Under the pieces are notes generated by a model. It made no database searches and was not told the origin of the DNA. It was given only the letters and a program-made list of their open reading frames with translations. The position numbers were made by a program, and so were the translations under genes. Source: Rhizoctonia solani (lineage: Eukaryota; Basidiomycota; Agaricomycetes; Cantharellales; Ceratobasidiaceae). Taken from it: a stretch of 64,000 nucleotides of DNA. The stretch is taken from positions 310,001 to 374,000 of the forward strand of contig NC_057381.1 in NCBI RefSeq assembly GCF_016906535.1. Direction: 5' to 3'. Shown in pieces: positions 28,425 to 63,820 of the stretch; position 1 is the stretch's first letter, and the number at the start of each line of letters is the position of its first letter.

Positions 28425-29171
28425 TGTTGTACACCACTGTAAGGTGGGTACACACTAGAGGTGGGTGCTTGGGGCCATATCTAATACAAGGTAATGCTGA
28501 TTAATTAAATGTACTAGGCTATACTACTGAACTAACTACTGCTCAAGGCAATGACTAGCTATCTACTGTCAACATGGAGGGGCCTTAGGCCTGGGAGGTG
28601 TGGTGAGACTACTGAAGGGGGTAAGTAATGTGCTACTGGGTTATCAGCTACTTAGCTGATCTACTAAAACCTGTCTATGATGAGAGACAAGGTAAAATTG
28701 ACTTGGGGTCTCCAAGGAATTTTCCTGCTGTGTATAACAAGGGAACTATCTACAGGGCAGTGTCCTGGACATGGTCACATGACCAGTACAAGTGGTTGCA
28801 TGCTGGCCCAAGCCCAAATTTGGGGGGTAGCAGGTGTAATCATGGGTTGTCAGCAGAGGAATAATAGGGCTCTATGGCTTAGTGGTCAAGCTGGTTCAAT
28901 TCTGGCTAGTTCTATTTTCCTCTGTTTATGACAGGCAGTCTATGCATGTGAGAAAAGAAGACTACATTTGAAAAGAGAAGCATGCTGCAGACTATGTAGA
29001 AGCATGGATTTCTCCTAGGTGCCCTTGGCACAGCATCTTGGTGCAGCATCTTGGCATAATAAGCGCCAAGATCATGTGATCAAAAAACTAAAGCTATTGA
29101 GTCCATAAAAAATACTAAAAATAAGAGATAAATTGTCCAATTCCAATGGCATAACTCAAGAGGGTGTAACA
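28425..29171. repeat. LTR-B solo LTR with a nested 173-bp element
   Basis: This runs from TGTTGTACACCACTG to GGGTGTAACA, homologous to the LTRs of the family-B gypsy element at 57557-63815. It is flanked by the direct repeat GTGCC (28420-28424 and 29172-29176). It is 747 bp long; removing the nested insertion and its duplication (178 bp) leaves 569 bp, against 562 bp for the young copies. It is CpG-depleted. Confidence 0.85.
28761..28933 (+). mobile_element. 173-bp TGTC...GACA mini-element, copy 1
   Basis: Ends are TGTCCTGGACA and GTTTATGACA, flanked by the 5-bp duplication GGCAG (28756-28760 and 28934-28938). It contains a tRNA-like core: a D-arm GCTTAGTGGTCAAGC (A-box-like TGGCTTAGTGG at 28875-28885) followed at once by a T-arm (B-box-like at 28893-28903), then TTTT. 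It has no coding capacity. By eye it differs from copy 2 at four positions. The T-arm stem is imperfect in this copy. Confidence 0.85.
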
Positions 29172-39396: not shown

Positions 39397-39415
39397 GAGT
39401 ATCTCCTGGACATGG
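39397..39415 (+). mobile_element. 173-bp mini-element copy 3, left 14 bp with its target duplication
   Basis: GAGTA (39397-39401) is the left target duplication. The element starts at 39402 as TCTCCTGGACATGG (second base C instead of G) and is cut after 39415 by the outer gypsy element. CATGG (39411-39415) is that element's own duplication. The remainder is at 52481-52639; 14 + 159 = 173 bp, the same length as copies 1 and 2. Confidence 0.85.
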
Positions 39416-39999
39416 TGTTGTAGACACATTCAATACCAGGGAACTTATTCCCATTTTCTCAATTTTGAACAAAGGCAAACAGACAACATTTTTGATCACG
39501 TGACTTTGGCGCTTATACCATACGCTAAGCGCCAAGCCACATCCCCATCCGCGCTTACTTCAGCATACGTAGCCACCTCCACTTGATGACATCACTATGA
39601 CACGTCAGTGACACGTATGCATGAGTAAGGCCAACTACGGATTGGGGTTCTTATTTGATACGGTTTTGCATATAGTTGTATTTGTAATTAGGTAGCTCTG
39701 TAATATATAAGGAGGCCAACCAACCATGGTAACACCCAGGTCAATTACCTCTTGTTGCATCCCACGTTGTACAAGGGCCTTACAGCCCAGCAACTCCTAC
39801 TCAGTCACTTAGCCTACACTGCCTTAAGCGGCTTCTGCATTGTACTTACCTAGCTCATCATTGCCCTTACGGCCTTGATCATTGTAGTATAGCTGGTTGT
39901 TGTTGTAGGATAGCTTGCCACCGCCTTACGCAGTTTCTACTTAGTCACACCCGGCCGCAAGCACCCTCCTCCTTGACGTCCTTACAGACATCTAGAACA
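39416..39999 (+). repeat. 5' LTR of the outer gypsy element (LTR-A)
   Basis: TGTTGTAGACACATTC...CATCTAGAACA, 584 bp, with a TATATAAGG promoter box followed by GAGGCCAACCAACCATGG. Differences from its partner LTR are nearly all transitions, mainly at CpG. Confidence 0.93.
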
Positions 40000-43510: not shown

Positions 43511-44083
43511 TGTTGTAGACACATTCAATACCAGGGAATTTATTCCCATTTTCTCAGATTTAAACAAAGACTAACAGACAACATTTTCGATCACGTGACT
43601 CCGGCGCTTATATCATACGCTAAGCGCCGAGCCACGTCCCCACCCGCACTTACCTCAGCATACGTAGCCACCTCCACCTGATGACATCACTATGACACGT
43701 CAGTGACACGTATGCGTGAGTAAGGCCAACTGCGGATTGGGGTTCTTATTGGTTATGGTATTGCATATATTGTATTTGTAATTAGTTCACCTCTGTAATA
43801 TATAAGGAGGCCAACCAACCATGGTAACACCCAGGTTGATTACCTCTTGTTGCATCCACCATTGTACAAGGGCCTTACAGCCCAGTAAAAACACTTAGCT
43901 ACATGCCTTAAGCGTTGGTCTCACTGTACATACGTAGCTCACCACCGCCATACAGCGCGTGGTCATTGTAGATAGTAGTTTGTTGTCGTAGGTAGACTCC
44001 TTGCCGCCTTACGCGGTACATACTCAGTTCTATACAGCCTTAAGCGCCCGCTACCTTGACGCCCCTTAAGGACGTCTAGGACA
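43511..44083 (+). repeat. 5' LTR of the inner gypsy element (LTR-A)
   Basis: This carries TCACGTGA (43591-43598), the inverted repeat GGCGCTTA/TAAGCGCC (43603-43610 and 43621-43628), and a TATATAAGG box (43799-43807) with probable transcription start about 25-35 bp further. It ends GTCTAGGACA. Confidence 0.93.
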
Positions 44084-46001: not shown

Positions 46002-46174
46002 TGTCCTGGACACAGTCACATGACCAGTACAAGTGGTTGCATGCTGGCCCAAGCCCAAATTTGGGGGGTAGCAGGTGTAATCATGGGTTGTCAGCAGAGG
46101 AATAATAGGGCTCTATGGCTTAGTGGTCAAGCTGGTTCAATTCCAGCTAGTTCTATTTTCCTCTGTTTATGACA
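46002..46174 (+). mobile_element. 173-bp mini-element, copy 2
   Basis: From TGTCCTGGACACAG to GTTTATGACA, flanked by ATATC (45997-46001, 46175-46179). The T-arm hairpin is perfect here: AGCTGG-TTCAATT-CCAGCT. It separates the frameshift site from the protease domain of the inner pol. Its last six bases, ATGACA, supply an ATG in frame with the rest of pol. Confidence 0.9.
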
Positions 46175-50110: not shown

Positions 50111-51899
50111 CTTGGCAATCATCCGTTCATTCAAGTACTGGCGGATCTTCTTGGAAGGAACCCTTCACCCCATCACTGTATTCACCAATCACCAAAACTT
50201 GGAATACTGGAAGGAGTCCCAGACATTCAACTGCCGCCATGCTAGATGGCACCTACTGCTAGCCGGCTACAACTTCCAGATTGTGTACAGGCCCGGAAAA
50301 CAATTGGGGAAGCCAGATGCTTTATCACAACAATTGGATCATGCGGATATTCCACCCAAACCCCAGTCCATGCTACCAAACCAGGTATTTGCCAATATTG
50401 CCTTGGTTACTCCGGAAAAAGAACTACAACAGCAGATTGAGTCATCCCTGGATCAAGACAAGTCCCTGGAGGAAATTCTCCAATTCCTGCAGAATGAGTC
50501 CAAAGCACCCCCCTCCATCAAACGTGCATTTAAGGATTATGAGATGGAGGCTGGCCTACTCTTCTACCAAGGACAAATTGTAGTCCCTGACGTGGGGACA
50601 CTAAGAACAGATCTACTGCATATCTTCCATGACAGCCCCTTGGCAGGACACCCGGGTAGGCAACGCACGCTAGAGTTGGTATCAAGAAGCTACTACTGGC
50701 CGGGCATCCGTGCTGATACGTACTGGCATGTGGATTCCTGTGAGGTATGCCAACGGATTAGAAAGCCAAGATACACATCAATTCCCCCTCAGCTGCTGGA
50801 ACTCCCAGTTAGACCCTGGCAGCACGTGTCTTACAACATGATAGTGGACCTACCTAAGGACGGAAACACAGACTTGATCCTGGTAATCATTGACAGTTTC
50901 ACTAAGTACGGGATCTTTGTAAAATGCTCCAAGAAGCTCAAGGCACCCGAGCTAGCGGAGCTATTCCTGGAAAACGTATGGAAGCGCCATGGCATGCCAG
51001 AAAAAACCATATCCAACAGAGGCAGGGTCTTCAACAACAAGTTCTTACGTGCCCTGTACAAACGCCTTGGCATTGATCCCCATTTCTCCTCTGCCTATCA
51101 CCCCCAGAGCAACGGACAAATGGAACGCGTCAATCCCTCAATTGAACACTTCCTCAGGGCTTACTCAGGGGTAAACCAAAGGGACTGGACCAGATGGCTT
51201 CCCATGGCAGAGTTTGCATACAACAATGCCATACATAGCAGCACGGGCAAAACACCCTTCAAAGCCCTGTACGGATGGGAACCCACATTAACCCCGTCAA
51301 ATATGCCAATGGACGTTCCAGAGGCAGATGACCTTGCCCAGACAATGGAGGCACAATGGAAGGAAGTGGAAGCAGCACTCCGGCAATCTAAGCAACAAAT
51401 GATAGCTGGAGAAAGTGGGAACCCAACAGAATTTGAGATTGGAGAAGAGGTTTGGCTGGACGCCAAGAATGTTAACCTCAAAACCCTGAGTCCCAAACTA
51501 ACGGAACAACAACTAGGGCCATTCAGGGTTACTGAAAAGATCTCTGACCAAGCTTACCGCCTGGAACTTCCCCCAACAATGCAGATCCACAACGTCTTCT
51601 ATGTAGGACTTTTATCTAAAGTTAAAAGGGACAAGAAGCGCGCCTTTGAGAATTGCCCCCCACCAGTCACCGTAGACAGAGAAGAAGAGTACAAGGTGGA
51701 AGGGATTACCAATGCCAAAGAAAGGGATGGGAAATGGTTTTTCCAAGTCAAGTGGAAGGGATACGGGTCCAAGGAAAACACATGGGAACCCCAAGAAAAC
51801 TTAAAAAACACCAAAAATTTTTTAGAAAAGTACGAAAAAGACATGAGAAAAAAGGCCCTTGGCGCTGCCAAGGCCCTTAAGAGGGGGGCAGTGTTGTAG
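50111..51899 (+). pseudogene. pol of the outer gypsy element, 3' part (RNase H end, integrase, chromodomain)
   Basis: This resumes at RNase H (LAIIRSFKYWRIFLEG) and carries the HHCC finger (HVDSCEVCQRIRKPR), integrase core and chromodomain (EEEYKVEGITNAKE, WFFQVKWKGYGSKENTWEP). It is open to TGA 51897-51899, inside the 3' LTR. Two integrase catalytic Asp residues are Asn (YNMIVDLP and SNRGRVF, where the inner copy has YDMIVDLP and SDRGRVF), both explained by G-to-A. So this integrase is inactive even if the split were repaired. Confidence 0.92.
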
Positions 51900-52475
51900 A
51901 CACATTTGATACCAGGGAATTTATTCCCATTTTCTCGATTTTGAATGAAGGCAAACGGACAACATTTTCAATCACGTGACTTTGGCGCTTATATCATATG
52001 CTAAGCGCCAAGCCACGTCCCCATCCGCGCTTACTTCAGCATACGTAGCCACCTCCACTTGATGACATCACTATGACACGTCAGTGACACGTATGCATGA
52101 GTAAGGCCAACTACGGATTGGGGTTCTTATTTGATACGGTTTTGCATATAGTTGTATTTGTAATTAGGTAGCTCTGTAATATGTAAGGAGGCCAACCAAC
52201 CATGGTAACACCCAGGTCAATTACCTCTTGTTGCATCCCACGTTGTACAAGGGCCTTACAGCCCAGCAACTCCTACTCAGTCACTTAGCCTACACTGCCT
52301 TAAGCGGCTTCTGCGTTGTACTTACCTAGCTCATCATTGCCCTTACAGCCTTGATCATTGTAGTATAGCTGGTTGTTGTTGTAGGATAGCTTGCCACCGC
52401 CTTATGCGGTTTCTACTTAGTCACACCCGGCCGCAAGCGCCCTCCTCCTTGACGTCCTTACAGACGTCTAGGACA
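51892..52475 (+). repeat. 3' LTR of the outer gypsy element (LTR-A)
   Basis: 584 bp, TGTTGTAGACACATTTG...GTCTAGGACA, preceded by the polypurine tract AAGAGGGGGGCAG and followed by the CATGG duplication. Confidence 0.93.
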
Positions 52476-52644
52476 CATGGTCACATGACCAGTACAAGTG
52501 GTTGTATGCTGGCCCAAGCCCAAATTTGGGGGGTATCAGGTGTAATCATGGGTTGTCAGCAGAGGAATAATAGGGCTCTATGGCTTAGTGGTCAAGCTGG
52601 TTCAATTCCAGCTAGTTCTATTTTCCTCTGTTTATGACAGAGTA
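52476..52644 (+). mobile_element. 173-bp mini-element copy 3, right 159 bp with target duplications
   Basis: CATGG (52476-52480) is the duplication made by the outer gypsy. The element resumes at 52481 (TCACATGACCAGTACAAG) and ends GTTTATGACA at 52639, followed by GAGTA (52640-52644), matching 39397-39401. The D-arm/T-arm core is intact with a perfect T-arm stem. Confidence 0.88.
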
Positions 52645-57556: not shown

Positions 57557-58118
57557 TGTTGTACACCACTGTAAGGTGGGTACACGCTGGTGGGAGCGGG
57601 CGCTTAAGGCCGTACTACTACAAGCTACAAGGTAATCTACTACTATACTAGGCTATCCTAATACCGCTTAAGGCGGCCTACCTATCTATACTACTGCGAA
57701 GGGGCCTTAGGCCTGGGAGGTGTGGTAGGTTAAGTAAGGGGGTTGACTACTGATGACTAATGGGGGCCGGCTACTTAGCTGGCTGGGTGTCCTCCTCAAT
57801 GAATATGAGACGAGGTAAAATTGACTTGGGGTCTCCAAGTGATTTTCCTGCTGTATATATAGGCAAAGCACACTATCTACATGGTCTGTGCGCGTGAGAG
57901 AAAGAAGTATAGAGGACAAATGAGAAGCGTGCTGCGGGCTGCGCAGAAGCGTGGATTTCTCCTAAGCGCCCTTGGCACGGCATCTCGGCGCGGCATCTCG
58001 GCATAATAAGCGCCGAGATCACGTGATCAAAAAACATAAGATATCAAGTCCGTAAAAAATACTAAAAATAATAGAAAATTAGGGCGATTCTGATGGTATA
58101 GTTAAGGAGGTTATAACA
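57557..58118 (-). repeat. 3' LTR of the family-B element (LTR-B)
   Basis: On plus: TGTTGTACACCACTG...GGTTATAACA. Contains TAAGCGCC at 58007-58014 next to TCACGTGA at 58019-58026, and TATATATA. Confidence 0.94.
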
Positions 58119-58129
58119 TTGCCCCCCCC

Positions 58130-63253: not shown

Positions 63254-63815
63254 TGTCGTACACCACTGTAAGGTGGGTACACGCTGGTGGGAGCGGGCGC
63301 TTAAGGCCGTACTACTACAAGCTACAAGGTAATCTACTACTATACTAGGCTATCCTAATACCGCTTAAGGCGGCCTACCTATCTATACTACTGCGAAGGG
63401 GCCTTAGGCCTGGGAGGTGTGGTAGGTTAAGTAAGGGGGTTGACTACTGATGACTAATGGGGGCCGGCTACTTAGCTGGCTGGGTGTCCTCCTCAATGAA
63501 TATGAGACGAGGTAAAATTGACTTGGGGTCTCCAAGTGATTTTCCTGCTGTATATATAGGCAAAGCACACTATCTACATGGTCTGTGCGCGTGAGAGAAA
63601 GAAGTATAGAGGACAAATGAGAAGCGTGCTGCGGGCTGCGCAGAAGCGTGGATTTCTCCTAAGCGCCCTTGGCACGGCATCTCGGCGCGGCATCTCGGCA
63701 TAATAAGCGCCGAGATCACGTGATCGAAAAACATAAGATATCAAGTCCGTAAAAAATACTAAAAATAATAGAAAATTAGGGCGATTCTGATGGTATAGTT
63801 AAGGAGGTTATAACA
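63254..63815 (-). repeat. 5' LTR of the family-B element (LTR-B)
   Basis: 562 bp. The TATATATA box (63551-63558) reads toward gag on the minus strand. TAAGCGCC and ATCACGTGAT lie upstream of it in element orientation. Confidence 0.94.
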
Positions 63816-63820
63816 TCTTC

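Follow-up and report, generated by a model that had tools for sequence, protein, structure and literature searches.

An LTR with a tRNA-like core, very probably that of a Helenus-type TRIM, in Rhizoctonia solani and its match to the element's own PBS

A 173-bp unit dispersed in the genome of Rhizoctonia solani is very probably the LTR of a non-autonomous, 435-bp TRIM of the Helenus type. The kind is known, fungal TRIMs with tRNA-derived sequence in their LTRs having already been described as Helenus (TRIMp3) (Kojima, 2024; PMC10886601), whilst the family is a new member and a variant in two respects, its missing anticodon arm and a PBS that matches the element's own tRNA-like sequence. It would extend the range of tRNA-armed TRIMs to a fungus of the Ceratobasidiaceae. 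One host protein encoded in the window has its nearest relatives, among the few matches that carry a name, in Ceratobasidium (69% over 99% to sp. 392; 86% over 54% to sp. 423).

The window (the whole 64,000-nucleotide stretch analysed, C12:310001-374000, within the 40.7 Mb and 16 contigs searched) holds three copies, the third of which (14 + 159 = 173 bp) is split by an LTR-A insertion with its own 5-bp duplication, CATGG. The features are as follows.

28761..28933, plus strand: 173-bp solo LTR; GGCAG duplicated on either side (28756-28760, 28934-28938)
28868..28914, plus strand: tRNA-like core (GGCTCTATGGCTTAGTGG...AGTTCTA) with D-arm and T-arm, no anticodon arm
28875..28885, plus strand: A-box match TGGCTTAGTGG inside the 28761 LTR copy
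28893..28903, plus strand: B-box region, GGTTCAATTCT in the 28761 copy, 7 nt past the A-box
28908..28914, plus strand: AGTTCTA, tRNA-like 3' end, with CCA complementary to the PBS TGGTAGAACT of complete elements
28915..28918, plus strand: TTTT directly 3' of the tRNA-like sequence, possibly a weak Pol III terminator or tRNA trailer
39402..39415, plus strand: third solo LTR, left 14 bp; GAGTA at 39397-39401; interrupted by LTR-A
39416..39999, plus strand: 5' LTR of the LTR-A chromovirus that splits the third copy; candidate helper kind
46002..46174, plus strand: 173-bp solo LTR with ATATC duplicated on either side; core at 46109-46155
51892..52475, plus strand: 3' LTR of that LTR-A insertion, closely preceded by the PPT ...AGGGGGGCAG
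52481..52639, plus strand: third solo LTR, right 159 bp; GAGTA at 52640-52644; core at 52574-52620

The copies start with TGTCCTGGACA and end with GTTTATGACA. An earlier sequence-only reading of this DNA had described three 173-bp copies with 5-bp duplications, and GGCAG, ATATC and GAGTA are all present; the TG...CA ends that it gave to the copies hold for two of them, the third having its second base changed and starting TCTCC instead of TGTCC.

The whole element, first revealed by two pairs of 173-bp copies with 89 bp between them, consists of a 173-bp LTR, an 89-bp internal region and a second 173-bp LTR, the internal region holding the PBS position and, ahead of the 3' LTR, the PPT AAAAAAGGGGGGCAG. 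Genome-wide there are 24 matches to the internal region (82-89 of the 89 bases matched; all 24 candidates scored), with PBS position and PPT and with paired LTRs where both are readable, which is the arrangement that the sequence-only reading had expected of a TRIM. An exact 5-bp target duplication was found at 20 of these 24 loci (17 in register, together with L104, L105 and L141 after allowing indels); L107 has one mismatch in its duplication, and L101, L042/L142 and L108 are broken or cut. The paired LTRs, compared at 18 of 23 loci with the other five left out for their indels or breaks, show 0-2 differences per 173 positions, and none in 13 of the 18 in-register loci. The family has apparently been active recently. 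Since flank letters are held in common by L089 and L091, and likewise by L093 and L096, the internal-region loci are not all independent insertions. L089 and L091 are whole elements near opposite ends of contig C10 with the same duplication and flank letters, a likeness that suggests segmental exchange.

A 31-nt core pattern with up to three mismatches found 316 cores genome-wide (149 + 167; reversed control 0), far more than the 24 internal regions. Among 78 distinct full-length LTR copies, counted at best-match and first-listed places rather than as a random sample, once duplicates, 25 partial rows and those with <8 bp of flank had been set aside, 70 are exactly 173 bp long and 36 are solo. 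The 36 solo LTRs have an exact 5-bp duplication in 28 cases, one mismatch in two and none in six; the 28 exact duplications comprise 26 different sequences, and in none of the 28 does the match extend to a sixth base. We infer that the solo LTRs arose by LTR-LTR recombination. A relaxed core pattern had 314 places, and the 100 of them that were listed showed only the same family; a scan of viral contigs gave no match. The 435-bp element contains no coding region of note, so it must move in trans.

A SINE or MITE with a tRNA-like promoter would likewise be short and dispersed and carry A and B boxes, and SINEs have an A-rich or simple tail and variable duplications of 7-20 bp. Here, by contrast, the length is nearly fixed at 173 bp, the duplications are of 5 bp, there is no A-tail and paired copies surround an 89-bp region with a PPT. 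The SINE alternative of the sequence-only reading, with its variable lengths, A-tails and longer duplications, therefore fails, and the whole 435-bp elements refute a SINE or MITE, to which we give a negligible probability. The excess of 316 cores over 24 internal regions would also suit an LTR left by a long autonomous element, most of whose interior has gone; such a parent had been considered before. All 24 internal matches, however, are to one short region (82-89 of 89 bases); the PBS junction (up to three mismatches) gave 23 exact element copies and six loose matches against 10 in the control, and the six loose-match stretches are without similarity to the other sequences compared (BLAST, E 1e-3). 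As the genome yielded no longer element with the 89-bp region or the PBS junction, this origin is very improbable.

The element resembles published Helenus families (PMC10886601) in its two LTRs and short non-coding internal part, in a length below 1000 bp (435 bp, inside the published range of 311-1263 bp), in the A-box TRGCY...YGG and the B-box GGTTC of most families (here TGGCTTAGTGG and GGTTCAATTCC), in the 5-bp target duplications of fungal families (here at 28 of 36 solo LTRs and 20 of 24 internal-region loci), and in its PBS position, PPT before the 3' LTR and many solo LTRs. It differs in that the anticodon arm is absent, in that the PBS is the antisense of the 3' end of its own tRNA-like sequence followed by CCA, an arrangement that PMC10886601 states was not found, and in that no anticodon-loop PBS was seen at the LTR edge, only a displaced 9-nt match to tRNA-Gly(TCC) from an incomplete tRNA list. 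The host lineage is likewise absent from the published table, where the Agaricomycetes are Agaricales, Amylostereum being added in the text. In literature searches, mostly at the level of search records, neither a TRIM whose LTR matches its own PBS nor a Helenus element from Rhizoctonia or Ceratobasidium came up. With the plant TRIM Cassandra the element shares small-RNA-derived sequence in its LTRs (PMC10886601), the plant LTR carrying 5S rRNA whereas the fungal LTR carries a tRNA-like sequence. The proposal of a tRNA-armed analogue of Cassandra was right in kind, although that kind had already been described as Helenus. An LTR with 5S rRNA, as in Cassandra or Ajax, was rejected here, Rfam giving no match at E up to 1.

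The tRNA-like core joins a D-arm to a T-arm with the anticodon arm gone, as had been noticed from the sequence, and its boxes are 7 nt apart. In the 46002 copy the consensus matches lie at LTR 115-125 (A-box TGGCTTAGTGG) and LTR 133-143 (B-box GGTTCAATTCC); in the 28761 copy the B-box is GGTTCAATTCTGGC, LTR 143-144 being T and G. Two more A-box matches were seen, one of them overlapping (LTR 123) and the other with a single mismatch (LTR 24). For the D-arm/T-arm core of 35 nt the fold has a z of -3.28 (0 of 200 shuffles as good), and the 48-nt core including the acceptor folds less strikingly (z -1.57; 14 of 200 shuffles). ARAGORN found no tRNA anywhere in the window and Rfam no match at the 173-bp element at E up to 1, so that the core is a degenerate tRNA-like sequence that cannot be recognised as a tRNA gene. 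Among 43 distinct host tRNAs, taken from an incomplete set of 66 genes, it scored best with the Gln type (15.6; Leu(TAG) second, 14.0), GGCTCTAT being identical at the 5' end and the T-arm similar, with ARAGORN labels of Glu and Gln; that a Gln-type tRNA was the source of the core is only a suggestion.

The mean minor frequency across copies is 0.0106 in the core vs 0.0076 in U3, low in the A-box (0.0013) and AGTTCTA (0.002) and high in the B-box region (0.026). As the core varies no less than U3, nothing suggests that, taken as a whole, it is better conserved. An older, diverged LTR group has at least 16 copies (L003:62-222 and L144-L158; 92-100% identity to L003; 40 of 331 candidates scored), 11 of 16 lying <50 kb from a contig end and most sharing their 3' flanks; it has likely spread by subtelomeric duplication. 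Most of its copies end GGTTGTA, not AGTTCTA, and its core folds no better than shuffles (181/200). Its downstream flank resembles the young internal region (7/5000 for the first 35 nt; 26/2000 for the whole stretch) but the PBS match is missing from it (its score of 7 was attained in 1343 of 5000 shuffles), and it therefore lends no covariation support. The D-arm/T-arm covariance that the sequence-only reading had looked to thus found no backing, the examined copies being nearly identical and the sole diverged group seen having no PBS match.

In Helenus the tRNA pieces have been proposed to be kept as Pol III promoters (PMC10886601), whilst here the promoter layout looks broken and the tRNA-like 3' half matches the element's own PBS. 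In tRNA genes of yeast the A and B boxes lie 31-93 bp apart (PMC11724288), and because the 7-nt gap is far below this, use of the core by Pol III is doubtful; the spacing argues against a normal type 2 promoter, and any promoter function is putative.

The internal region opens with CT, followed by the PBS TGGTAGAACT and then TGGAAGGACACCAG. This PBS is the antisense of AGTTCTA plus CCA, unbroken over 10 nt; AGTTCTA sits between the T-arm and TTTT, and the CCA is not encoded in the LTR there. With gaps, the antisense runs on through the T-arm (TGGTAGAACT---TGGAA-GGACACCAG vs TGGTAGAACTAGCTGGAATTGA-ACCAG, score 14), a score attained in none of 5000 trials when the internal start was shuffled and in none of 5000 when the core was. 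When TTTT was substituted for CCA the score was 11, reached by 14 and 16 of 5000 shuffles; with the whole 89-bp internal region tested, 14 and 10 of 5000 reached the observed score, and an 18-nt PBS test gave 20 of 200000. The 7-nt match without CCA is reached by 36 of 300 shuffled LTRs, and the 9-nt match with G-U by 75 of 300; as the 7-nt match alone is not significant, the case for a self-match rests on position and CCA. The PBS is without three bases (AGC) of the perfect antisense, and the best-matching form of the T-stem, CCAGC, occurs in 12 of 70 copies, the other two forms scoring 10/12, not 12/14. Two adjoining repeat units, CTTGGTAGAA/CTTGGAAGGA, point to a small duplication at the PBS, and the second of them, which has the 9-nt tRNA-Gly(TCC) loop match, could be an older primer site. 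Internal positions 25-35 hold a B-box-like AGTTCTATTCC with two mismatches; this stretch contains the LTR's AGTTCTA once more and can fold onto the PBS.

Because the PBS is antisense to the tRNA-like sequence and no host tRNA fits so far, an anticodon-less tRNA-like RNA encoded by the LTR may prime the element's own reverse transcription, a tentative proposal that we hold well short of an even chance. The RNA would be trimmed after A73 and CCA-tailed, and would then prime on the element's PBS; the mature primer would end ...AGUUCUACCA, and the PBS would be the copied footprint of this RNA, given that the antisense opens with TGG, unencoded in the LTR, and does so precisely where the mature RNA is predicted to end. 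A change of role from promoter to primer would be in keeping with the missing anticodon arm, a loss that should harm a promoter but leaves acceptor and T-arm intact. If self-priming is true, the family offers a directly testable case of an element bringing its own primer. An ordinary Helenus, primed by the 3' end or anticodon loop of a host tRNA and with the core as promoter or relic, has not quite an even chance, and the match of PBS to LTR core would then reflect chance or a common origin from tRNA. Helenus elements of fungi mostly rely on the anticodon loops of tRNAs, and for Helenus generally the account by Kojima (PMC10886601) found no complementarity between tRNA-like sequences and PBSs. 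The anticodon loop of mature tRNA-Gly(TCC), CCTTCCAAG (intron placed by ARAGORN), is complementary to internal positions 11-19 over 9 nt, and the tRNA set scored (66 genes, 43 distinct) is incomplete; this match lies, however, 10 nt inside the LTR edge, a misfit with primer-set LTR ends, and loop matches of at least 9 nt occur in 14 of 200 shuffled PBSs. The 3' ends of the 43 host tRNAs examined score at most 7.0/8.5 with the PBS, vs 12/14 for the LTR core. Host primers were also sought genome-wide with patterns of a tRNA T-loop followed by AGTTCTA, which cannot tell a host tRNA with A57 and T66 from the element, and with a pattern allowing up to three mismatches. The exact pattern AAGTTCTA had 0 matches, the G57 form one (L143), and the A57, not T66, form six, namely L165-L167 and three (TTCAATTCTGGCCAGTTCTA) that look like element copies; these exact patterns found no host tRNA gene ending AGTTCTA, the 3' end needed, alongside an incomplete tRNA list. 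The looser pattern gave 43 matches (24 to the element's own PBS and 19 others, L140 and L168 among them) vs 22 in the control, and six primer-pattern stretches (L140, L168, L143 and L165-L167) had no Rfam tRNA match at E up to 5. Were priming ordinary, this would still be a well-bounded, apparently recently active family in which to study trans-mobilisation.

Self-priming in the manner of Tf1, where the first 11 RNA bases are complementary to the PBS (PMC7175516), would share with the element here an LTR sequence complementary to its own PBS, over 7 nt, or 9 with G-U. AGUUCUA(UU) of the R region would pair with the PBS in cis and the RNase H of a chromovirus helper would cut the paired R region, with no CCA-tailed tRNA-like RNA involved. 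The neighbouring LTR-B copy shows the Tf1 arrangement (PMC7175516), with a 13-nt perfect LTR/PBS match, and the R-U5-internal RNA fold of the TRIM contains the exact pairing, with a z of -2.69 that 2 of 200 shuffles equal or better. The TRIM pairing, however, amounts to 7 Watson-Crick and 2 G-U pairs, as reached by 75 of 300 shuffles, and the TGG ahead of TAGAACT stays unexplained; unlike Tf1-type elements, moreover, the element is non-coding and 435 bp long, and its complementary stretch, only putatively the RNA 5' end, lies at the end of a tRNA-like fold. We consider this route unlikely.

The TRIM RNA would start inside the LTR, at the tRNA-like core or close to it, and the proteins of an autonomous LTR retrotransposon would package and copy it in trans, the helper's integrase inserting the product. 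LTR-A belongs to a Ty3/gypsy chromovirus (RVT_1, rve, Chromo). The PPT end AGGGGGGCAG is common to LTR-A and the TRIM, and the TRIM tip TGTCCTGGAC agrees at 9 of 10 positions with the reverse complement of the LTR-A/B end TGTCCTAGAC, which bears out the earlier impression that the element's 5' end resembles LTR-A read backwards. Because PPT ends and LTR tips match, the LTR-A kind is the first helper candidate, and mobilisation of the TRIM by a chromodomain Ty3/gypsy element of this kind is plausible but unproven. Copia is the other candidate: fungal Helenus families are like Copia at the PBS and are thought to use Copia (PMC10886601), and 58 RVT_2 matches show that Copia elements are present in the genome. 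A genome-wide search at up to three mismatches revealed no autonomous element that shares the TRIM's PBS junction.

A second chromovirus in the window, on the minus strand, has LTRs at 57557-58119 and 63254-63816 that are 99.6% identical; its PBS region matches an LTR stretch at 13 of 14 positions by eye, the computed match being 7 exact and not significant. The LTR-B copy, an LTR-A-family chromovirus with its LTR at 43511-44083, carries a 13-nt perfect antisense of its own adjoining PBS (AGGTTGATTACCT / AGGTAATCAACCT), reached by 0 of 300 shuffles with Watson-Crick pairs and by 1 of 300 with G-U allowed, and to judge from these sequences it is a Tf1-like self-primed element.
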